Shown here: piece after piece, positions 1 to 9,773 of the stretch
How positions within the stretch are numbered: position 1 is the stretch's first letter
Layout of the letters: every line of letters starts with the position of its first letter
Program-made: the position numbers and the translations under genes
NCBI RefSeq assembly: GCF_014196425.1
Contig: NZ_JACIDR010000001.1
Coordinates: 496,001 to 560,000, forward strand
Direction: 5' to 3'
DNA from: Hansschlegelia beijingensis
GTDB taxonomy: Bacteria > Pseudomonadota > Alphaproteobacteria > Rhizobiales > Methylopilaceae
DNA: 64,000 bases
The notes under the pieces: model-generated
The model's input: the letters and a program-made list of their open reading frames with translations, nothing else
The model's database searches: none
Told to the model about the DNA's origin: nothing

Positions 1-1385
1 GGCAGATTCTCGTCGTGGTAGAAACAGCCGACCACGACCGGATTGTCCGGATCTCCGTTCATGAAGGAGATGCCGACTTCCGTGCCGACGCGCGGCAGAT
101 GCTGCCAGCCCCAGCCGTCTCCGGCCCAGGCGTGAAGGATGCGGACGAAGATCGACTTCGCCGCCGTGGTGTCCTTGCGGTGATCGAACAGCGGCTGAAC
201 CTTGACCCGCGCCAGACGGTCCGAGTGGATTTCCTCGCCCGGCTCGCCGAGCACGATCGCCGAGAACACGCCGGTCATCGCCGGGCGCGGGATCGACAGG
301 TCGTCCCGCCATGTCACCGCCTGCCGGAAGCAGACGAAACTGCTCTCGAAGCTGGCCTCCCCGGCGCCGCCGAGCCAGGTGTCGTCCGCCGCCGTGTGGA
401 CCACGCTGTGGATCACATGCTCGACGCTCCGCGCGCCCGTGATCGGATCGGTCGCCAGCGTGAAGCGGAAGCCGGGGCAGAAATTGGGATCGTAGCCGTG
501 CCCGCTGCAGAGCGCCGCGGACGCCTCCGCCGCCTCCTGCCGGAACCGGGCGCGATCGGCGGCGACGGCGTTGTCCGTGGTCATCGCCGGCCAGCGATAG
601 GCCCTTCGCCGCGCGGCGCCTGCGGTGCGGAGGCGCGTCCGCCGTTCGCCGTTCACCGGCTTGCGCGGCTTTTCGGGATCGTAGTCCTGGAGCTGCACGC
701 GGCCATAGGTGGTCTCGCGCGCGTCGCTCCAGGCGTCCACGATGTCGCTGTTGTCGCCCTGATAGACGACCCGATGCACGGTATCGACCTGCGGCCGGAA
801 CGCCTGGTTGTGATCCGCTATGACCAGGACGTGCTTCGAGGCGGAATGCTCGAAGAAGTAAAAATAGCCGCTCTCCTGCATGATCCGCTGGACGAACTGC
901 AGGTCGGTCTCGCCGAACTGGGTCGTGTAGGGGCGGACGCCGCCGCGGCTAAGGACGCGGAACTCGACATGCTCGACGCCGTGCTCCCCGAAGATCTCCT
1001 TCAGGATGTCGATCGCCGTCTTCTGCTGGAAGATCCGGCAATCGCTGATCTGGCTGAGGAACCAGAGGCGCGGGACGATCTCCAGCCGGTACCGCCACCG
1101 GTCGCGCTGGTCGCTGCCGAGCGCCTCCATGCGGCGGACGACGCCGTGGAACAGTCGTTCATGCCCGTCCTTGAGCCGCACGGTGATCGTGACAGGCTGG
1201 TAGAGCAGTCTGTCGGGGTCGAGCGCCCGGATGGTCGAGACGGCGAGGACGTCGATCTCGAACGGCGCGCTCAGCCGCTCCCGGGCGCTCATGCTGACCG
1301 CATGAAGCGTCTCGTCCTGGAATGGCCGCCGGTCAGCGCCGAGCGGCGACTTGAGCAGCAGGAGCGGGGACGATCCGCCGGCCAT
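1..1385 (-). CDS. vgrG: Type VI secretion spike protein VgrG (3' end outside window)
   Basis: VgrG trimers form the spike of the type VI secretion tube and carry effectors. About 461 residues are visible before the frame runs off the left edge. The N-terminal part starts MAGGSSPLLLLKSPLG and has the beta-barrel/LysM-like spacing of the phage gp27/gpD fold. The OB-fold region carries the family motif GDPDNPVVVG near residue 445. I chose the ATG at 1385 because GGAG lies about 10 nt upstream; an in-frame ATG near 1499 would add about 38 residues without family similarity. The gene is the last visible member of a long minus-strand series, 250 nt downstream of a secreted protein gene. Whether the missing C-terminus carries an effector extension cannot be seen. 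Confidence 0.93.
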   Translation of the reverse strand, partial: MAGGSSPLLLLKSPLGADRRPFQDETLHAVSMSARERLSAPFEIDVLAVSTIRALDPDRLLYQPVTITVRLKDGHERLFHGVVRRMEALGSDQRDRWRYRLEIVPRLWFLSQISDCRIFQQKTAIDILKEIFGEHGVEHVEFRVLSRGGVRPYTTQFGETDLQFVQRIMQESGYFYFFEHSASKHVLVIADHNQAFRPQVDTVHRVVYQGDNSDIVDAWSDARETTYGRVQLQDYDPEKPRKPVNGERRTRLRTAGAARRRAYRWPAMTTDNAVAADRARFRQEAAEASAALCSGHGYDPNFCPGFRFTLATDPITGARSVEHVIHSVVHTAADDTWLGGAGEASFESSFVCFRQAVTWRDDLSIPRPAMTGVFSAIVLGEPGEEIHSDRLARVKVQPLFDHRKDTTAAKSIFVRILHAWAGDGWGWQHLPRVGTEVGISFMNGDPDNPVVVGCFYHDENL

Positions 1386-1635
1386 CAGCGAGCCGCTCCG
1401 GCGCGCCGGGTGATTTGCTCGTCGGGGACGGGGGGCCGCGCCGGGTGGGAAGAAGCCATGAACGATCTGCGTCGCCGGGCATGAGAGCGCCGGCGTCATC
1501 CTCTTGCGGGTGCGTGTCGTTGATCCGGAGCCTCGGCCCGCTCGATTACGCGACGGTTTCAGGATCGTCGGGCTTCAACACAGCGGTAATCGGCCTTCGC
1601 GCGTGGATGGCATCCGATCCTCGCCGCCGCCGGCG

Positions 1636-2583
1636 CTACCGGTCGGAGTGCGCCGGCGCGCGCGGTTTCGGAACCGGGCGACACACGCCTGTGCTCTGCA
1701 CGAGGAGCGGCGTGGCGCCGATCATCGCCTGTCGGCCGAGGGCGCTCGGAACGCCGCCGCTCCGTCCCGCCGAGACGAACAGCGTCAGGGTCGCGGCGTC
1801 GCCGTTCGGGTTCACGGAGGCGAGCAGGGCCTGCCTGTCGGTCCTGATGATGCGCGCGACGGTCGCGCCGTCTCGGTCGATCAGCGCCGCGCGCCGCCGC
1901 CGCACGTCCTCGGCGGAAGCCGCGATGAGCAGCGTCGACGAGCCGCTCGGCGCGCCGGGTCCGTAGTCCAGCCCACGGAACTGGCCGACCGACACGGCGT
2001 GGAAGCTGCAGGCCAGCGGCGCTGCGAGCAGATCGTCGAGCGCATCCGGAGCGCCCCCGGACGCCGGCGGCCTCTCGGCGGACGGAGCCGCCGCGTCGAG
2101 GACGGCGAGGCTTCGTCGGAGGAGATCGCGTGCGCTCGGCTCGGGCTGGTCTCCCCCTGCCGCGCCGCCCGCGATGGCGTCGATCCCGAACTGACTGATG
2201 CGCTCCGCCAGCGCGGTCTCGGCTGACGTCAGGGGCTTCTCGGGAAGGGTAGCGGATGGAGGCGCGTCGGCCGATCCAGCCGCATCCGGTTCCGGAGAAC
2301 CGGATGCGGCTGGCGCAGCCGGCGGATAGGTCGCCTGGCGCTTCTGCTCTCCCGAGGCGGAGGACGGCCCGAACTGGGCGAGCTTCGGCGGGGACCCCGT
2401 CCCGCTCTCGGGATTCGGGCGCATTTCGCCCGGGCGAGGAGGGGCGAAGTCGTAGCTCCTTCGAGCTGTGTCCGGCTTCTCCGGCGCCGGCGCCTCCGCG
2501 GGGGAGAACGCGGTCAGGGCGACGATCGCGGCGATCCCCATGAGCCGCCGGGCCCGCGCCGCCAGCATCCGCTCACAGGACAT
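1636..2583 (-). CDS. Secreted Pro/Ala-rich protein of unknown function
   Basis: 315 residues from the ATG at 2583, which overlaps the previous gene's end by 11 nt. A second ATG at 2568 (MLAARARRLMG) is a possible start. The N-terminus is a Sec signal peptide with hydrophobic core IAAIVALTAF. Residues about 30-130 are low-complexity and rich in Pro, Ala, Ser and Glu, as in a linker or wall-spanning segment. The C-terminal 150 residues look globular, with two widely spaced cysteines that could form a disulfide in the periplasm. I do not recognise the family. Its place between the TolR-like and vgrG genes suggests an envelope-facing part of the same apparatus. Confidence 0.65.
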   Translation of the reverse strand: MSCERMLAARARRLMGIAAIVALTAFSPAEAPAPEKPDTARRSYDFAPPRPGEMRPNPESGTGSPPKLAQFGPSSASGEQKRQATYPPAAPAASGSPEPDAAGSADAPPSATLPEKPLTSAETALAERISQFGIDAIAGGAAGGDQPEPSARDLLRRSLAVLDAAAPSAERPPASGGAPDALDDLLAAPLACSFHAVSVGQFRGLDYGPGAPSGSSTLLIAASAEDVRRRRAALIDRDGATVARIIRTDRQALLASVNPNGDAATLTLFVSAGRSGGVPSALGRQAMIGATPLLVQSTGVCRPVPKPRAPAHSDR

Positions 2584-3127
2584 GAACGGCCACCACCAAA
2601 TTGTTGAAGGTGAGATAGAAAAGGAGGTTGCTCGCACGATCGGCGCGCTGCTTCGGGACCCGGAAAGCGATCTTCCCGAGCACAACGCGATCGGGATCGT
2701 CCCGGCGCAGCGTCACCTTGACCGGTCGAGCGTCGTCGAACAGCCAGTCGACCTTCCGGCCGCGTTCCGCCGGGCGGTACAATGAGAGGCCGAGCCAGTC
2801 GAAGTGGAGCTCGCCCGTCTCCCGCGTCGCGCCGCCGTCGCTCGGGTCCATCGACACGTTGAGATAGTCGACGGTCACGACGTAGGCGTCGCCCTCGTCC
2901 TGGCAGCGCGCCGCCCCGCTTGCGAGGACGCCCCAGGAGGCGCCGGCGATCTTGACCGGCGACGGCTCGCCCCGCCCCGCGCAGAGCGCCGCGTTCCGGC
3001 CGAAGCCGAGCCAGAAATCCGGCTGGCCCTCGTCGGCCCCGGCTGCGGCGGATGACGTCAGAGCCGCCGCCAAGGCGAGGCAGATCGGGATGCGCCGTCG
3101 CGCGCGGGCGTCACCGAATGACGACAC
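2573..3127 (-). CDS. Small secreted protein, unknown function
   Basis: 184 residues with a clear signal peptide (LALAAALTSSAAAGA, cleavage near residue 30). The mature part is beta-rich, has two cysteines (LCAGRGEP and RCQDEGD) and ends LTFNNLVVAVHVL. The start lies inside the 3' end of the TolR-like gene (17-nt overlap) and the stop overlaps the next start, so all three are probably translated together. No family recognised. A periplasmic or surface-exposed partner of the channel-like pair is a reasonable inference from context only. Confidence 0.7.
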   Translation of the reverse strand: MSSFGDARARRRIPICLALAAALTSSAAAGADEGQPDFWLGFGRNAALCAGRGEPSPVKIAGASWGVLASGAARCQDEGDAYVVTVDYLNVSMDPSDGGATRETGELHFDWLGLSLYRPAERGRKVDWLFDDARPVKVTLRRDDPDRVVLGKIAFRVPKQRADRASNLLFYLTFNNLVVAVHVL

Positions 3128-3707
3128 GGCCGTCGTCCTCCACCGTGAGCGTGGCCGCCCGCACCCGCTCCCTGGCGGTCCGCAGCGTCCGGGGCGGAAG
3201 CGCGCGGCGTCCCGTCCGGTCGAACACCGCGCCGCTCACCTCGACGGTCGACCCGGCCGGCAGGCCGTTCGCCACATAATCGATCTGGTAGGGGCCGGGC
3301 GTCGCCGCCGGATGCTCCCAGACTTCGACGCCCGGGCCTCCGGTCATGTCGGAGCTGAGTTCCGCGGCGCTCGAGGCGTAGTCGAGGCCGCTGGCGTTCG
3401 GCCGGCGCCAGAAGAACTCCTGTCCGGCCGGGTCGGTCACGTGCAGGTCGACGTCGGCGCCGCTCGCGGCCCAGCGGATACGCACCAGCACGAAAGGCGG
3501 CCCCGGCGGCCGCGCGGCTTCGAGCTGGCTCTCCAGCCTCCGGATCGTCTCGTCCTTGAGCGCGAGCCGCTCGGGCGCGGTGCGCCCTTCGCCGTAATAG
3601 GGGAACAGGATGATCGTCACGAGGATGAAGGCGCCGAGCGCCGACGCGAACAGATCGAGCGCGGAGATGCTGAAGATCTCGATGTGGCGGCGTCGCCGGC
3701 GAAGCAT
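3111..3707 (-). CDS. TolR/ExbD/MotB-like single-pass membrane protein
   Basis: 198 residues. A basic N-terminus (RRRRRH) is followed by one transmembrane helix at about residues 12-36 (SALDLFASALGAFILV) with an Asp near its start. That is where ExbD, TolR and MotB carry their proton-accepting Asp. A short helical stretch with charged residues follows, then a periplasmic beta domain from about residue 72 (FVLVRIRWAASGADVDLHV) containing a WEHP motif. No OmpA-type peptidoglycan-binding domain is present, unlike MotB or ZorB. It lies 400 nt after the ExbB-like gene with one small gene between. I infer a stator-like pair; the ligand of the periplasmic domain is unknown. Confidence 0.7.
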   Translation of the reverse strand: MLRRRRRHIEIFSISALDLFASALGAFILVTIILFPYYGEGRTAPERLALKDETIRRLESQLEAARPPGPPFVLVRIRWAASGADVDLHVTDPAGQEFFWRRPNASGLDYASSAAELSSDMTGGPGVEVWEHPAATPGPYQIDYVANGLPAGSTVEVSGAVFDRTGRRALPPRTLRTARERVRAATLTVEDDGRVVIR

Positions 3708-3759
3708 GGCGGCGGCTCAGTCCGCGGCCGCCGGGGCGGCTGTGCGCTGCGTGGGGCCG

Positions 3760-4095
3760 TCAGGAACCTCCCGTTGCTTCGGGACCGGGATGCGGGACCG
3801 CGCGTCTCGGCGCCACCACGGTCGCGTCCGGGTCACGGGCCAGGTCGCGGCGCGTCCCGCCGTGATCCTCGGGCCGCGAGGCGGCCTGCTCCTCCCTCGC
3901 GCGTTCCCGTCCTCGGCTGGCGTCGCGGGCCGGCCAGGCCAGGCGAGCGGAGACCGGGACTGGTCGAGGCGGCAAGACGGTGACGTCGAGCTCCCTGTCC
4001 GGCCCGCGGGTCGCGGCGAGCTCGGCTTCGGGCGTCCGCCGAAGCGGGGCGCGGCGGGGCGAGCGCGACAACAGGGCGAGGATGCGTCTGAACAC
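3760..4095 (-). CDS. Small basic protein of unknown function
   Basis: 111 residues from a GTG at 4095, with AAGG 8 nt upstream, 10 nt after the ExbB-like stop. The N-terminus MFRRILALLSRSPRR is amphipathic, and the rest is Arg-, Pro- and Glu-rich and probably disordered. A competing frame starts at an ATG (4109) that overlaps the ExbB-like stop as ATGA and runs to 3717 (131 residues). Its composition is unusually rich in Arg, Pro and Ser, so I prefer the GTG frame. One of the two must fill this slot in the operon; neither is recognisable. Confidence 0.45.
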   Translation of the reverse strand: MFRRILALLSRSPRRAPLRRTPEAELAATRGPDRELDVTVLPPRPVPVSARLAWPARDASRGRERAREEQAASRPEDHGGTRRDLARDPDATVVAPRRAVPHPGPEATGGS

Positions 4096-4105
4096 GGGGG
4101 CGCCT

Positions 4106-4933
4106 TCATGCGGCCGGCTCGGGGTTCGGGACGTAGAGCCGGTTGATGAGATGATCGAGGCAGCGCTGGCCCGAGAGATTGAGGGCGTGCTCTTCGCGCG
4201 CCTCCGCGACGCCCTGCCAGAACAGCAGGACCGCGGCCATCAGCAGCGCCACCAGCGTTCCGTCGAACGACACGGCGAGCCGGGCGGTCACCTCGGTCAG
4301 CAGCGTGGGCTCCTGGAGCCGGCCGGGCTCGCCCGCGTAGGACAGGGCGTGGCCGATGCCCGTCACGGTGCCGATGAAGCCGAGCGACGGGATCAGCCAG
4401 GTGATGTAGCGGAGCGGGGCGTAGCGCAGCTCGATCTCGTGGGAGATCAGGTCGAGCGTGGAGTTCATCAGCATGGTGCACTGCTCGACCGAGGAGCTGA
4501 TCTGGAACTGGAGGATGCAGCGGGAGATCAGCCGGGGCAGGAAGCTGCGCTCCGCCGCGCCGCTCTCGCGCACCCGCCGGTAGATCAGTTCGAGATCGTC
4601 GGCCTGCAGCACGACGCTCGGGTCTTCCGGCAGGTAGCCCAGGGTCAGTTGCCGCAACTCGCGGGAGGCGGCGCGCATCCGCAGCGCGAGCTCGCCCGCC
4701 GCGATGCAGAACACGATCCACATGACGTTCTGCACGGAGAACGGATAGAGCAGGCCGCCGCGGTCTATCATGATCTTCGCGGCGGCGTCGGGCAGCACGG
4801 CGTGGAAGGCTGCGCAGAGCGCGACGCCGAACAGGCCGGTGGCCGCCGCGAGCGTGGCCCGGCGGTCTTCGAGCCGGGGGCGGCTTCCAGAGAGGCCGTC
4901 CGGCGTCGCCGGTTCGGCGGCTGCGATCGTCAT
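4106..4933 (-). CDS. MotA/TolQ/ExbB-like proton channel family protein
   Basis: 275 residues. Predicted membrane segments lie at about 33-50, 60-90, 190-212 and 225-245. The third contains GFIGTVTGI, the hallmark of MotA/TolQ/ExbB subunits that form the pentameric channel around a TolR/MotB-type dimer. The segment between helices 2 and 3 is the cytoplasmic region typical of the family. The start overlaps the FHA gene stop as ATGA, so translation is probably coupled. With the Asp-bearing TolR-like protein downstream it should form an ion-driven motor or force transducer. What it drives (wall remodelling, T6SS, defence) is not shown by sequence. Confidence 0.85.
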   Translation of the reverse strand: MTIAAAEPATPDGLSGSRPRLEDRRATLAAATGLFGVALCAAFHAVLPDAAAKIMIDRGGLLYPFSVQNVMWIVFCIAAGELALRMRAASRELRQLTLGYLPEDPSVVLQADDLELIYRRVRESGAAERSFLPRLISRCILQFQISSSVEQCTMLMNSTLDLISHEIELRYAPLRYITWLIPSLGFIGTVTGIGHALSYAGEPGRLQEPTLLTEVTARLAVSFDGTLVALLMAAVLLFWQGVAEAREEHALNLSGQRCLDHLINRLYVPNPEPAA

Positions 4934-5265
4934 CGATTGCGCACCACGATCCGCCCCGTGAGGGGGTCCCTTTCCACGCGACGGAGCGGCCGCGTGGGAG
5001 AGGGCAGTTTTGCGCGCTCGAGAAGATCCCCTACCGTCGTCTCGAACTCGCCGAGGCGGATGAGGTCCCCGGCCGCGAGCTGCGCCTCCGTCATCGGCAG
5101 CCAGTCGTCGCCCTCCCTGCGGCAGCTACCGGCGGTGCTTCCCGTGTCCACGAACAGGAACCGGCCGGGCCCCACGGCGCTGAGCCGGGCGTGCTGGCGG
5201 GACACGGTCGGATCGACGACGACGATGTCGCAGCTCGGCGCGCGGCCGATCGAGAAGCTCGACAT
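4930..5265 (-). CDS. FHA domain protein (phosphothreonine reader)
   Basis: 111 residues, essentially one forkhead-associated domain: SIGRAP at the N-terminus supplies the conserved Gly-Arg, SRQHARL the Ser/His pair, and DTGSTAGS the region usually written NG. FHA domains bind phosphothreonine peptides, so this is the natural reader for the kinase encoded upstream in the same run. It sits 3 nt after the DUF4399 gene and overlaps the ExbB-like gene by 4 nt. T6SS clusters use PpkA/Fha pairs for post-translational triggering. This stand-alone FHA next to a channel protein suggests phospho-control of the channel, which is inference. Confidence 0.88.
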   Translation of the reverse strand: MSSFSIGRAPSCDIVVVDPTVSRQHARLSAVGPGRFLFVDTGSTAGSCRREGDDWLPMTEAQLAAGDLIRLGEFETTVGDLLERAKLPSPTRPLRRVERDPLTGRIVVRNR

Positions 5266-5268
5266 GGT

Positions 5269-6183
5269 CTAGCGCCCCTGCTTTCCGGCCAAACGGACCA
5301 CCACCGACAGGCGCTTCGACATCACCGGCGGATCGAACTGCCGGCCGTCCGCGTCGGTGAAGACGAGCTGCAGCGTGTGCCGCCCGGGCGGGAGCCGCAG
5401 TTCCGCCTCGGTGGCGCCGTCCGGGAAGCCGCGATGACGATCGTCCTGCGGAAGGAGATCGTCCGGCGAGAGCTCGCCCGCGTCGACCAGCAGATGATGA
5501 TGCCCGGAGTTCGGCCGGGCGCCGGCGTCCGCCGGAGCGACGCCCATGCCCCGAAGGCCGAAATAGACGGTCATGCGCGGCGGGACGGTCTGGCCGTCGC
5601 GCAGCCCGACCAGGTAGACCTCGGCCCCGGCCGGCGCCGACAGGCGTGGCGGGACGGCGACGACGTTGATCGTGGGCGAGGCCACGGACGGTTCGAGCGG
5701 CGCGTGATCCTTGTCGCCGATCACGAGCTGCAGCGTGTGGGGGCCGGGGCTGAGCTCTATGTCGGCCTCGGTCTGGCCCTGGCCGAGATGCAGATGATTG
5801 TCGTCGGCGGGGATCGGCCGGTCGGGCGCGGGCGGTGGGGCGTCGATGAGCAGGTGATGGTGGCCGGTTCCGGGGAACGCCACGCCGGCCGGCGAGACGC
5901 CCATGTTGGACAGGCCGAAGCGGACCCGGAGCTTCAGCGGCACGCGCGCGCCGTCCTGGAGATCGATGAAATAGACGGCCGCCCCCTCCGGCGCCCGCGT
6001 TGGCTCGGCGTGCGGCGGCGCCGCGTGGGATTGGTCGGCCCGCACGTCGGCGGCCGCGCCCGCGAGAAGCAGGGCGGCGACGGCGGCTGACCGCCATCCG
6101 CGCAGGAAGCAGCCGGCGCTCCGCTCAGGCGGCGGCCCCGGCCGCCGGCTCGGATCAACGTGGGTCGCGGCTTTCCTGAACAT
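5269..6183 (-). CDS. Exported protein with two DUF4399 domains
   Basis: 304 residues from an ATG at 6183 with AGGGAAG 5-9 nt upstream. A signal or anchor segment lies at about 28-48 (AAVAALLLAGAAADVRA). Two similar domains of about 110 residues follow, each with the sequence YF/YL-DL/GLRDG, a VRFGL or VYFGL strand and the diagnostic His cluster GHHHLL-D, ending in HTLQLV. That is DUF4399, usually found singly. The duplicated His-rich sites could bind a metal or a glycan. The intergenic gap to the lysozyme gene upstream is 50 nt. Export puts it in the periplasm beside the TolR-like domain. Confidence 0.85.
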   Translation of the reverse strand: MFRKAATHVDPSRRPGPPPERSAGCFLRGWRSAAVAALLLAGAAADVRADQSHAAPPHAEPTRAPEGAAVYFIDLQDGARVPLKLRVRFGLSNMGVSPAGVAFPGTGHHHLLIDAPPPAPDRPIPADDNHLHLGQGQTEADIELSPGPHTLQLVIGDKDHAPLEPSVASPTINVVAVPPRLSAPAGAEVYLVGLRDGQTVPPRMTVYFGLRGMGVAPADAGARPNSGHHHLLVDAGELSPDDLLPQDDRHRGFPDGATEAELRLPPGRHTLQLVFTDADGRQFDPPVMSKRLSVVVRLAGKQGR

Positions 6184-6233
6184 GATCTTCCCTGGGTTCG
6201 AGGGGCGCTGACCAGACGCGGGCGCTGAAGCCG

Positions 6234-6920
6234 TCACTCGTTGTCGAAGGGCCATGGCTTTCGCTCCGGCGGCGCGCCCGCGTCCGTCGGCGTGGCGGTG
6301 TCCAGGCCGTCCGCCGCGATCGGCGCCGCGAAGCGCTGTCCGGGCGGGCTCGGCCTCGCGAAGGGCGGGAAGGCGCCGGTCCGCATCGCCGCAGCCATGC
6401 GGCGCGCGCGCAGGGGCGAGTCCGAGCGGCTCCACTTGGACTGCTCCATCGACGCCGTGGCGGCCGGCCAGTCCTGCGCCTGCACGGCCGGGATCAGCCG
6501 CCGGAACTTGCCGAACCGCGCCTCGCCCATCTGGTAGACCATCGCCGACAGGACGATCTGGCGCGGCAGGTCGATGACGCGGAAGCGGGGGAAGTGGCGG
6601 CACACGCCGTTGAGAGCCACGAACTCCGATATCAGCAGCAGCGACTGAGCTTCGGGCTCGGTCAGGAAGGCCGCCTTGGCGATCAGGTCGGACGTCGTCT
6701 TCGCCGTCACGCGGCGCAGGACGCCCGCCGCGCCGCCGTCCTCGAGGTTGAACCCGTAGCCGATGGTCGCGATGCCCTTGCTGTCCCGGTAGGACACATG
6801 CAGCCCGTTCCGCACGATGCGGCCCTCCTCGAAGATCAGGAGGTTCTTCAGCCGGTCGGTGAGCTCGTCGGCGGAGCCGGCGGCGACGCAGGGCGGCGGG
6901 GGCGAGAGCGCGGCCGTCAT
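6234..6920 (-). CDS. T4-type (GH24-like) lysozyme domain protein
   Basis: 228 residues from an ATG at 6920 that overlaps the previous stop as ATGA. Residues 28-60 carry the phage-lysozyme active-site layout: Glu31/32 in IFEEGR, Asp46 in YRDSKG and Thr52 in TIGYGFNLE. These match the Glu-Asp-Thr catalytic set. The enzyme should cut the MurNAc-GlcNAc bond of peptidoglycan. No signal peptide is visible at this start, so it needs another exit route: the T6SS, or a -1 shift fusion to the secreted protein upstream (see findings). The C-terminal 60 residues are Pro/Ala-rich. Alternative role: local wall opening for assembly of an envelope machine. Confidence 0.85.
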   Translation of the reverse strand: MTAALSPPPPCVAAGSADELTDRLKNLLIFEEGRIVRNGLHVSYRDSKGIATIGYGFNLEDGGAAGVLRRVTAKTTSDLIAKAAFLTEPEAQSLLLISEFVALNGVCRHFPRFRVIDLPRQIVLSAMVYQMGEARFGKFRRLIPAVQAQDWPAATASMEQSKWSRSDSPLRARRMAAAMRTGAFPPFARPSPPGQRFAAPIAADGLDTATPTDAGAPPERKPWPFDNE

Positions 6921-7387
6921 GGCAGGTTGATCGTCACGATCGCGCTGTTTTTTTTTGAGCAGGCGGCGTCCGCGCAGGTCTGCGCGATCCAGAACTCGCC
7001 GCCCGCGAGGCCGACCTCGTCGCCGCGGACGATCATCCGGCTTTCGTCCGTCACGGCCTCCCGGAGTTGCGCGGCCTTCAGCAGTTTTTCGGCGACCGTC
7101 CGCAGCTGCTCCCTGGGCACGACGGTGTTGGACGCGCCTTCCGTCACCCGCACCTGCGGGGCCGTCAGCTCCAGGATCGGCGCAGGGTCGCCGGATGCGG
7201 CGCTCCGGGCGATGCCGTTGACGACGCCTTCGACCTGCGCGACGTCGAAATCGCGCGCCTCGAGGTCGCGTCGCAGCGTCGGCGAGGCGGCGTAGACGCG
7301 CCGCTCGGCGGTCTGCGCAGCGGCGAGGGCGCAACTCCCCAGCGTGAAGGCCAGGCTTGCCGCGAGCGTCCTGATCATGATGGCCAT
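6917..7387 (-). CDS. Small secreted protein upstream of and overlapping the lysozyme gene
   Basis: 156 residues from an ATG at 7387 with a strong AGGAGG 7-12 nt upstream. Signal peptide at 1-25 (SLAFTLGSCALAAAQ). The mature domain (about residues 30-156) has an alternating helix/strand pattern and ends in CADAACSKKN, whose two cysteines may pair. The codons for SKKN contain a run of nine A. Candidate roles are an immunity protein protecting the wall from the adjacent lysozyme, or the N-terminal half of a frameshift fusion with it. It follows the kinase gene by 11 nt. The family is not recognised. Confidence 0.8.
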   Translation of the reverse strand: MAIMIRTLAASLAFTLGSCALAAAQTAERRVYAASPTLRRDLEARDFDVAQVEGVVNGIARSAASGDPAPILELTAPQVRVTEGASNTVVPREQLRTVAEKLLKAAQLREAVTDESRMIVRGDEVGLAGGEFWIAQTCADAACSKKNSAIVTINLP

Positions 7388-7398
7388 GATGCCGCCTC

Positions 7399-9294
7399 CT
7401 ATGGCCGCGCTGCCGGCGCGGGGGCGGCCGCGAGATCGCTCACGACCCGCAACCCGTTGGTCACGTAGGGGACCGCCGCGTCGTACTTGAAGCGCGCGGC
7501 GGACCGCACATAGCGGGCGTCGCTGTTGAAGCCGCCGCCCCGGAGCACGCGCTGTCCGCAATCCGGAGTGGTCACAGCGCGCGCGTCCGACGGTGCCGAG
7601 CGGTAGTCCGGGGTCCAGCAATCCTCGACCCACTCGGCCGCGTTTCCCGCTGTGTCGTAGAGCCCGAAGCCGTTGGGCGGGAAGCTGCCCGTCGCCACGA
7701 CGGCGCCCCGGGCGCCGCCGCAGTCCGCGCAATTCGCGTGGGTCTCCCCGACCTCGTCGCCCCACCAGAACGAGCCGACTGCGCCGCCCCGCGCGGCGTA
7801 TTCCCACTCGGCCTCGCTCGGCAGGCGGTAGGGCTGGCCGGTCGCGTCGGAGAGCCAGTCGGCGTAGCGGCGAGCCTGGTTCCAGCTGACGCCGGTGGCG
7901 GGCGCGCGGTCGTCCGCGGCGCGCGGATTCCGGGCGAGCGGCTCGCAGCCTCCCGCGGCCACGCAGGCGACCCATTCACGCCGCGTCACCTCGCGCTGGC
8001 CGATCGCGAAGGGCTTCGCCAGCGTCACGATGCGCACCGGCCGCTCGTCGGCGCGGCCGTCGTCGGAGCCCATCCGGAACGCCCCGGCGGGCGCCACCGT
8101 CATCACGGGGCAGTCCTGGCAATCCTTGAACGTGGCGCCGGGACGAAGACCCGCGGTCTCCCGCTCGGAAAGCGCCTTGGGCGGCGCGCTCGCTATCGCG
8201 GGCGCATCGGCTTCCGGCGCCCGTGCCCGCGGCAGCAGGAACGCCGCGGCCCCGGCGACGATGACGACGGTCGCGACCGCGAGGCCGACGACTTTCGCGC
8301 GGCCGCTCGCGGACCTGGCGCCCCCGCCGGGCGCGGGCGCCGCAGGAGCCTGCGCGGCGGCCGGCAGCAGGCTTCTTGCGTGGGCGACCGAGGCCGGCCG
8401 CCCGGCGGGCTCGATCGCGAGCAGCGCATCGACGAGCCGAAGAAGCGCCTCGTCGTAGCGCCCCGCGGCGGCGACGCCGGCGGGCGGAAGCGGATCGTCC
8501 CGCAGGCGCCTCAGGGAGTCGGTCGGAACCTTGCCGGTGACCGCCCGGTAGAGGATCGCCCCAAGGGAGTAGATGTCCGACCAGGGTCCCTGCTGATCCC
8601 CGATGCCGTACTGCTCGGGCGGCGAGTAGTTCGGCGATACGATCTGGGTGACGGTCGCGCTGTGGCGCAGTCCGAAATCGCGCGCCGCGCCGAAGTCGAT
8701 GAGGACCGGCGTGTCGTCGTCGCGCAGGATCACGTTCCTCGGCTTTAGGTCGCGATGCAGGATGGCCCGGTCATGGAGCGCGCCCAGCCCATCGAGCACG
8801 CCGTTCAGGATGCTGAGGACGCGGCGCTCCGGCAGCGGCGCCTCCTCGAGCGTCGCCTCCAGCGAGCGGCCCTGCACGAAGTCCAGCACGATGTAGCCGG
8901 TGCCGTGGGCCTCGAAGAACCTGCGGACCTGCACGATGTTGGGGTGCCGAACGCGGGCGATGATCCGGGCCTCGTCCAGGAAGGACGCGACGCCGGCGTC
9001 GAAGGTCGCGGCGTCCCGGCTCGACCGCGCCCGCGCCGACTGGTCGCTGGCCCTGATCGCCGCGTGCGCGGGAAAGAACTCCTTGACCGCGACCGGCTCC
9101 CTGAGAAGCGTGTCCTCGGCCAGATAGGTGATGCCGAAGCCGCCGTGGCCCAGCACGGCGTCGATCCGGTACTCGAACAGGCGCGTGCCGCGCGAAAGCG
9201 CGGCCAGGTGGTCGTCCGTCCCGCCGAAGCGGGCGGCGTTCCGGAGCGCCGGATCTGTCGCCCGCAGAAGATCGCCGCTGTCCTCCTTCGCCAT
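7399..9294 (-). CDS. Transmembrane Ser/Thr kinase fused to a formylglycine-generating-enzyme-like domain
   Basis: 631 residues from the ATG at 9294, which overlaps the preceding stop (TGATG). Kinase domain at about 42-310: Gly-loop LGHGGFGITYLAED, Lys71 in VAVKEFF, HRDLKPRN at 180-187 and DFG at 200-202. All catalytic residues are present. A Pro/Gly linker is followed by one membrane helix (about 335-355), then an FGE-sulfatase/DUF323 domain at about 385-630 in the periplasm (PAGAFRMGSDDGR, EVTRREW, PSEAEWEYAARGG). The same arrangement occurs in PpkA-like T6SS kinases, where the outer domain senses an envelope signal. The FHA protein in the same operon is the likely reader of its phosphorylation. 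Confidence 0.93.
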   Translation of the reverse strand: MAKEDSGDLLRATDPALRNAARFGGTDDHLAALSRGTRLFEYRIDAVLGHGGFGITYLAEDTLLREPVAVKEFFPAHAAIRASDQSARARSSRDAATFDAGVASFLDEARIIARVRHPNIVQVRRFFEAHGTGYIVLDFVQGRSLEATLEEAPLPERRVLSILNGVLDGLGALHDRAILHRDLKPRNVILRDDDTPVLIDFGAARDFGLRHSATVTQIVSPNYSPPEQYGIGDQQGPWSDIYSLGAILYRAVTGKVPTDSLRRLRDDPLPPAGVAAAGRYDEALLRLVDALLAIEPAGRPASVAHARSLLPAAAQAPAAPAPGGGARSASGRAKVVGLAVATVVIVAGAAAFLLPRARAPEADAPAIASAPPKALSERETAGLRPGATFKDCQDCPVMTVAPAGAFRMGSDDGRADERPVRIVTLAKPFAIGQREVTRREWVACVAAGGCEPLARNPRAADDRAPATGVSWNQARRYADWLSDATGQPYRLPSEAEWEYAARGGAVGSFWWGDEVGETHANCADCGGARGAVVATGSFPPNGFGLYDTAGNAAEWVEDCWTPDYRSAPSDARAVTTPDCGQRVLRGGGFNSDARYVRSAARFKYDAAVPYVTNGLRVVSDLAAAPAPAARP

Positions 9295-9773
9295 CAATCG
9301 GCGCTTCGGAAGGTGAGGCCGGCGAACGTCCGGCATCCCGGCTGCGCGGGGTCGACCGCAAATCCTCCGAAGACGCTGGCGACCCGGCAGGTGAAGGGAA
9401 ACCGGGTTCTTCCGACGTCGCCGTCGCCGTTCACGAAGGTGATGGCGCCGGCGCGGCTCTCGTAGCGGCCGACCGCCTGGCGAGCGCCTCCGAGTTCCTG
9501 GACCAGGAACGCGCCGTCCGGCTGGAGGGAGAGGGCGACGGAGGCCGAGAGGTAGATTCCGGGCCGCACCCTCGCGCCGCCGCCGCTCTTGGTCCCGACC
9601 GCGTCCGCGGCCGCGATCCCGAGGACGGACGCCGCAAGCGCGACCACGCCGACGCTGCGGCTGCGCGCCGGCCGTAGCGGCGCGGCCGCGCCGTCCCGTC
9701 GAGAGGAGGGAAAAAGCTTCCTGCGGCTCAGCTTGGACCGTCGCCGGACGTCGGCCTCGGTCGGGCGCATCAT
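9294..9773 (-). CDS. Membrane-anchored or exported protein, unknown function
   Basis: About 159 residues from the double ATG at 9773/9770; the frame is open to 9842, so a longer start is possible. A basic cytoplasmic stretch (RRRSKLSRRK) precedes a hydrophobic segment at about 42-60 (VGVVALAASVLGIAA), giving a signal anchor. The outer domain is a small beta-rich module with two cysteines (FTCRVASV and GCRTF). The stop overlaps the kinase start by one base. It appears to be the first gene of the run, so a promoter is expected in 9774-9945, but I could not pick a convincing -35/-10 pair. Family not recognised. Confidence 0.65.
   Translation of the reverse strand: MMRPTEADVRRRSKLSRRKLFPSSRRDGAAAPLRPARSRSVGVVALAASVLGIAAADAVGTKSGGGARVRPGIYLSASVALSLQPDGAFLVQELGGARQAVGRYESRAGAITFVNGDGDVGRTRFPFTCRVASVFGGFAVDPAQPGCRTFAGLTFRSAD

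Follow-up and report, generated by a model that had tools for sequence, protein, structure and literature searches.

Can an enzyme that attacks the cell wall, encoded without an export signal of its own, borrow one from the gene in front of it? The question is raised by two adjoining genes in a window of 64,000 nucleotides from the genome of Hansschlegelia beijingensis, the whole stretch of DNA that was analysed. The first gene encodes a small signal-peptide (SP) protein and carries an uninterrupted run of nine A (A9) near its 3' end; the second encodes a T4-type lysozyme (Table 1).

Table 1. Features of the SP-lysozyme locus and its surroundings (window positions)
Feature	Position	Strand	Basis
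VgrG, cut by the window edge, past which the T6SS cluster runs on	1..1499	minus	
MotA/TolQ/ExbB-like protein	4106..4933	minus	domain match; 76% identical in Methylobacterium variabile
FHA-domain protein	4930..5265	minus	domain match
DUF4399 protein	5269..6183	minus	domain match
T4-type lysozyme (228 aa) that lacks both a signal peptide and a Shine-Dalgarno of its own	6234..6920	minus	T4 match, motif, orthologue
Fusion predicted for A10 (384 aa), running from signal peptide through domain and linker to lysozyme	6234..7387	minus	run-length variants
SP protein, 156 aa, sub-threshold SnoaL-like match	6917..7387	minus	ORF, Pfam; 51% identical M. variabile orthologue
Codons of the shifted frame (KQRDRDDQPA), translated only if slippage occurs, leading to the lysozyme Met	6921..6950	minus	sequence reading, run-length variants
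Proposed slippage site: the A9 on the coding strand	6948..6956	minus	zero-frame codons TCA AAA AAA AAC
Hairpin in the RNA on the 5' side of the run (two arms of 10 bp, 6997-7006 and 6959-6968)	6959..7006	minus	weak
Strong Shine-Dalgarno AGGAGG of the SP gene	7395..7400	minus	-10.2 kcal/mol
Ser/Thr kinase carrying an FGE-sulfatase-like domain at its C-terminus; the operon starts with this gene	7399..9336, start codon provisional	minus	domain match

The Two Proteins and Their T6SS Neighbourhood

The N-terminus of the SP protein, judged by eye, reads as a Sec signal peptide. Structure prediction gives a mean pLDDT of 37 for the protein alone and 41 when its one close orthologue is included, values too low for the models to be of use, and none of the Pfam models matched above cut-off in the family members scanned (P0001, L020, and L005). 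A profile built on the protein was run against 397 genomes of the order and found relatives in 30; within the order they form a widespread family of small exported proteins ending ...C.D..C....W.I..INN.

The second product matches T4 lysozyme across the domain (GH24, Phage_lysozyme), with an E value of 2.4e-13 over residues 29-186. The Pfam Phage_lysozyme model scores just below cut-off for the window protein and above it for the orthologue in Methylobacterium variabile. The catalytic E, D, T motif is kept in both species as E32, D46, and T52, which we take, by motif, to be the T4 triad E11/D20/T26; the phmmer alignment does not put E32 on T4 E11. The first ∼20 residues are proline-rich, poorly conserved, and linker-like. 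Neither species shows Shine-Dalgarno pairing at the lysozyme start (+0.3 kcal/mol), the values for the SP gene being -10.2 and -7.0. With such a start, production of the lysozyme must depend on coupling, fusion, or both.

Directly downstream of the operon, partly beyond the window, lie genes for VgrG, an FHA protein with a T6SS C-terminal domain, TssK, and TssM, and beyond TssM those for Hcp, ClpV, two TssC-type sheath proteins, and TssG. Kinase, FHA, and FGE-like proteins (PpkA, Fha, and TagR) belong to the T6SS phosphorylation pathway, and the kinase/SP/lysozyme operon is therefore probably a T6SS accessory operon. Its kinase-FGE protein presumably resembles a fusion of PpkA-like and TagR-like parts. 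The T6SS neighbours, absent from the initial annotation of this DNA, suggest a role for the lysozyme pair and also a competing explanation of it as effector and immunity protein (see below).

An operon of kinase-FGE, DUF4399, FHA, ExbB-like, and TolR-like genes is conserved beside the T6SS (window 2573-9336, minus strand; L020:3255-10300 in M. variabile). A related, lysozyme-free set of genes is found on a Rhizobium leguminosarum plasmid (L175), where an A8 run sits just past the start of the ExbB-like gene (L175:11982-11989, 60% GC).

A Run of Nine Adenines Before the Gene Junction

Read on the minus strand from the run to the stop, the SP gene ends TGC TCA AAA AAA AAC AGC GCG ATC GTG ACG ATC AAC CTG CCA TGA, which confirms the nine consecutive A (plus-strand T at 6948-6956) reported in the initial annotation. 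That such a run is rare in GC-rich DNA, as was also claimed there, is borne out by the run spectrum. In 96 kb of the H. beijingensis genome, A/T runs of length 4, 5, 6, and 7 number 63, 23, 4, and 1, respectively; none has length 8, and the only one of length 9 is the run in the SP gene. The whole 3.66 Mb genome holds three A9 runs. The other two are intergenic, one adjoining a GC-rich inverted repeat that looks like a terminator and one lying between two genes. Given the protein and local codon usage, and treating codons as independent, the probability of at least nine A is 5.7e-4 for the window and 2.5e-3 for M. variabile.

The SP stop overlaps the lysozyme start as ATGA in the window, and the lysozyme stands in the -1 frame because of this overlap. 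An ATGA overlap always places the second gene in that frame, so that the frame geometry alone is unremarkable; it is the run that is remarkable. One step back from the SP frame was said to lead through KQRDRDDQPA into the lysozyme with no stop, and computed run-length variants agree that the -1 frame is open. In the window, A10 gives a single ORF of 384 aa, with the junction ...SKKKQRDRDDQPA followed directly by MTAALS..., and A7 gives one of 383 aa. The open fusions in M. variabile are 402 aa (A10) and 401 aa (A7). With A8 or A11, the frame closes after a few codons in either species, and the window product then ends ...KTARS. The shifted frame would have a meaningful product, being open into the lysozyme in both species. 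In the fusion, the upstream domain would be without its last ∼9 residues, which are conserved, and the signal peptide may therefore matter more than the SP domain itself.

Conservation of the Run

A pattern scan of one genome per species, covering 84,980 species, returned one close relative, M. variabile (L020). This bacterium belongs to a different genus and has the same gene order as the window operon: kinase-FGE, SP protein (51% identical), lysozyme (67%), DUF4399, FHA, and ExbB (76%). Further along come VgrG, a PAAR-like protein, an FHA protein, and TssK, the names after VgrG being given by resemblance to the window proteins. Its SP gene ends TGC ACG CAA AAA AAA ATT TCG CTG GTG ACG ATC AAC CTG CCG TGA, and the run is again exactly nine A (L020:5922-5930), two bases further 3' than in the window. 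The residues encoded at the run differ (SKKNSAI in the window and TQKKISL in M. variabile), forming a variable stretch between conserved flanks. Fourfold-degenerate sites of the SP gene are identical at 16 of 30 positions, by which synonymous sites look saturated. In these two species, the run is kept beyond protein and codon constraint. The proposal that it is a slippage site has gained partial support from the comparison of the run and both frames in a relative: M. variabile has an exact A9, adjacent genes, and the -1 relation, despite changed codons.

Runs of nine or more A number four in the 7.4 Mb of M. variabile, that in the SP gene included. Two of the others are at contig ends by transposase-adapter-like sequence, and one ends an AT-rich contig of foreign composition. 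The adapter-like contig ends and the foreign-looking AT-rich end (L021, L024, and L029) make contamination of this assembly probable. In each of the two genomes, the SP-gene run is the only such run of native composition found inside a gene, and codon choice or protein constraint therefore hardly explains it. We regard it as very probable, from these comparisons, that the A9 is under selection as a nucleotide element.

The conservation case for the A9 consists of the two species that carry the pair. No third SP-lysozyme pair was found in 100 relatives or 297 genomes of the order, in 298 M. variabile relatives or 385 genomes of the class, in the plasmids searched, or in viral contigs, whose phage-type lysozymes are at most 38% identical. 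ExbB-like loci in five other genomes, and that on the Rhizobium plasmid, have related signalling genes and no lysozyme or SP protein. At the 17 closest SP-family loci (L146-L162), no run of A within the last 50 codons exceeds five, and the flanks examined, mostly about 1.5 kb, contain no lysozyme match. The A-run accompanies the lysozyme, though this association has no positives beyond the two loci with a lysozyme.

How the Run Might Act

On balance, and with moderate confidence, we favor the reading that the A9 is a selected recoding site giving a minor SP-lysozyme fusion by slippage. Most transcripts would yield the 156-aa secreted protein. RNA polymerase would slip on the A9, chiefly adding one A, and a -1 ribosomal shift on A-AAA-AAA could add to the fusion. 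A minority of the product would then read the SP protein straight into the lysozyme, yielding an exported fusion of 384 aa, and lysozyme alone may come from reinitiation at ATGA. The likely outcome would be that the periplasm of the producing cell receives a small, fixed dose of a peptidoglycan hydrolase linked to the T6SS, for example for T6SS passage through the wall. Slippage, its level, export of the fusion, and the role of the fusion are all what we infer from sequence.

Several published observations bear on this proposal. In living bacteria, RNA polymerase slips efficiently on nine A or T (PMC5009743), and the T6SS gene tssM1 of Citrobacter rodentium slips at an A11 run at a level of 20-25% (PMC4256274). 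In many bacteria, selection against A/T runs becomes visible at nine, and such runs in GC-rich genomes have been argued to be likelier under positive selection (PMC1088944). Programmed transcriptional slippage calls for about nine or more A or T inside a coding sequence, and both species have A9 there.

Transcriptional slippage is more likely here than a -1 ribosomal frameshift because neither a conserved downstream structure nor an internal Shine-Dalgarno accompanies the run. The initial annotation had pointed to A-AAA-AAC as the slippery heptamer. A slippery heptamer is indeed present in frame, but the zero-frame one common to both species is A-AAA-AAA. No downstream stem-loop stimulator stands out (z 0.1 to 0.7), and no internal Shine-Dalgarno was seen 5' of the run on reading the sequence of either species. 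Upstream, the window has a hairpin with z -2.9 for 50 nt and -0.95 for 60 nt; the best windows in the two species reach -2.9 and -2.5, with window lengths picked after looking. Such hairpins are reminiscent of a stem-loop in the nascent RNA of a Roseiflexus IS element (PMC5009743) and are a possible, weakly evidenced slippage aid. They are only a lead, because they are non-homologous between the species and their windows were chosen post hoc.

Some observations weigh against slippage as the explanation. The pair occurs in two species only, no stimulatory structure is conserved, and the conserved C-terminal end of the upstream domain would be missing from the fusion. Moreover, reinitiation at ATGA could yield the lysozyme without slippage.

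Alternative Explanations

The two genes could instead encode an ordinary T6SS effector/immunity pair, in which the signal-less lysozyme is injected, the SP protein is its periplasmic immunity protein, ATGA provides coupling, and the A-run has no function. An export-signal-free muramidase beside a small exported protein is a typical effector layout. The pair adjoins the VgrG region in both species, a linkage to T6SS genes as such pairs would have, and is rare among relatives, as is often the case for effector pairs. Predicted immunity proteins with signal peptides have been described near vgrG (PMC5061870). However, this explanation leaves the conserved A9 unaccounted for, and SP-protein relatives exist with no lysozyme nearby, by which the family is not dedicated to immunity. 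We consider it unlikely, and an effector/immunity pair and slippage are in any case compatible with each other. Phase variation at the DNA level, with replication slippage toggling the genome between A9, which gives separate proteins, and A10 or A7, which fuse them, draws on the hypermutability of homopolymers in genes and on the difficulty of separating replication from transcription slippage by sequence, as pointed out by Baranov et al. (PMC1088944). It seems improbable to us given exactly nine A in both genomes, an argument that is weak with n = 2.

Another use for the run would be as an unstructured, A-rich standby or S1-binding element that aids the lysozyme start. The lack of a Shine-Dalgarno there and the near-equal distance from run to start (27 and 28 nt) fit such an element, but it would have no need for an uninterrupted run of exactly nine A, and ribosomes translating the upstream gene would cover the site; we give this explanation little credence. 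Finally, the true run might be A10 or A7 and the locus a single gene, some sequencing platforms being error-prone at homopolymers. We reject this explanation as very improbable. Nine A were read in two separate assemblies, and the zero-frame C-terminal tail, VTINLP and stop, is conserved between the window and M. variabile and agrees with the native C-terminus of distant SP-protein relatives (...W.I..INN). The 156-aa product is therefore real, and the locus holds two genes rather than one that a sequencing error has divided. The slippage idea of the initial annotation has accordingly outlived the findings that could have undone it: the genes are not far apart, the A-run is conserved, and the two genes are not one.

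Possible Roles and Relation to Known Systems

The role of the locus may follow one of three readings: an exported fusion serves T6SS passage; the lysozyme is an effector with its immunity protein and slippage is unimportant; or both forms are used. It is possible, though doubtful, that one lysozyme gene supplies a cytoplasmic form, as potential T6SS cargo, together with a small amount of an exported form meant for the wall of the producer, at a dose set by slippage. If slippage does join the two genes, recoding would decide where in the cell a potentially lethal enzyme ends up, by giving it the export signal of a neighbor; no such use of slippage turned up in the literature searched. It would also account for how a signal-less wall hydrolase of a T6SS operon could reach the cell's own periplasm, and T6SS biology would have, besides tssM, another kind of slippage. 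As a search rule, a lone in-gene A9 in a GC-rich genome merits a conservation check.

Parts of this arrangement are familiar from other systems. Thermus thermophilus dnaX and the Shigella T3SS genes mxiE, spa13, spa33, and mxiA have runs of about nine A or T with productive slippage in cellular genes; their genes and products are different, and the passages on them describe no signal peptide handed to a neighboring enzyme (PMC5009743). IS elements that join orfA and orfB by slippage likewise have overlapping ORFs with the second in a shifted frame (PMC1088944, PMC5009743). Unlike these elements, the SP-lysozyme locus is not mobile, and there are no transposase domains in the operon. TagX of Acinetobacter is, as here, a T6SS-encoded wall hydrolase, proposed to act in the passage of the machine through the producer's wall, but it is a membrane-anchored L,D-endopeptidase rather than a T4-type muramidase without its own export signal (PMC5061870). 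TagX serves as a model for the periplasmic role proposed for the fusion. The tssM genes (C. rodentium tssM1, with its A11, and Yersinia pseudotuberculosis tssM3) share with the arrangement proposed here A-run slippage near a stop, T6SS linkage, and a short and an extended product (PMC4256274). In tssM, experiments demonstrate that slippage completes one protein, whereas here it is predicted to join two genes, the second of which would gain an export signal.
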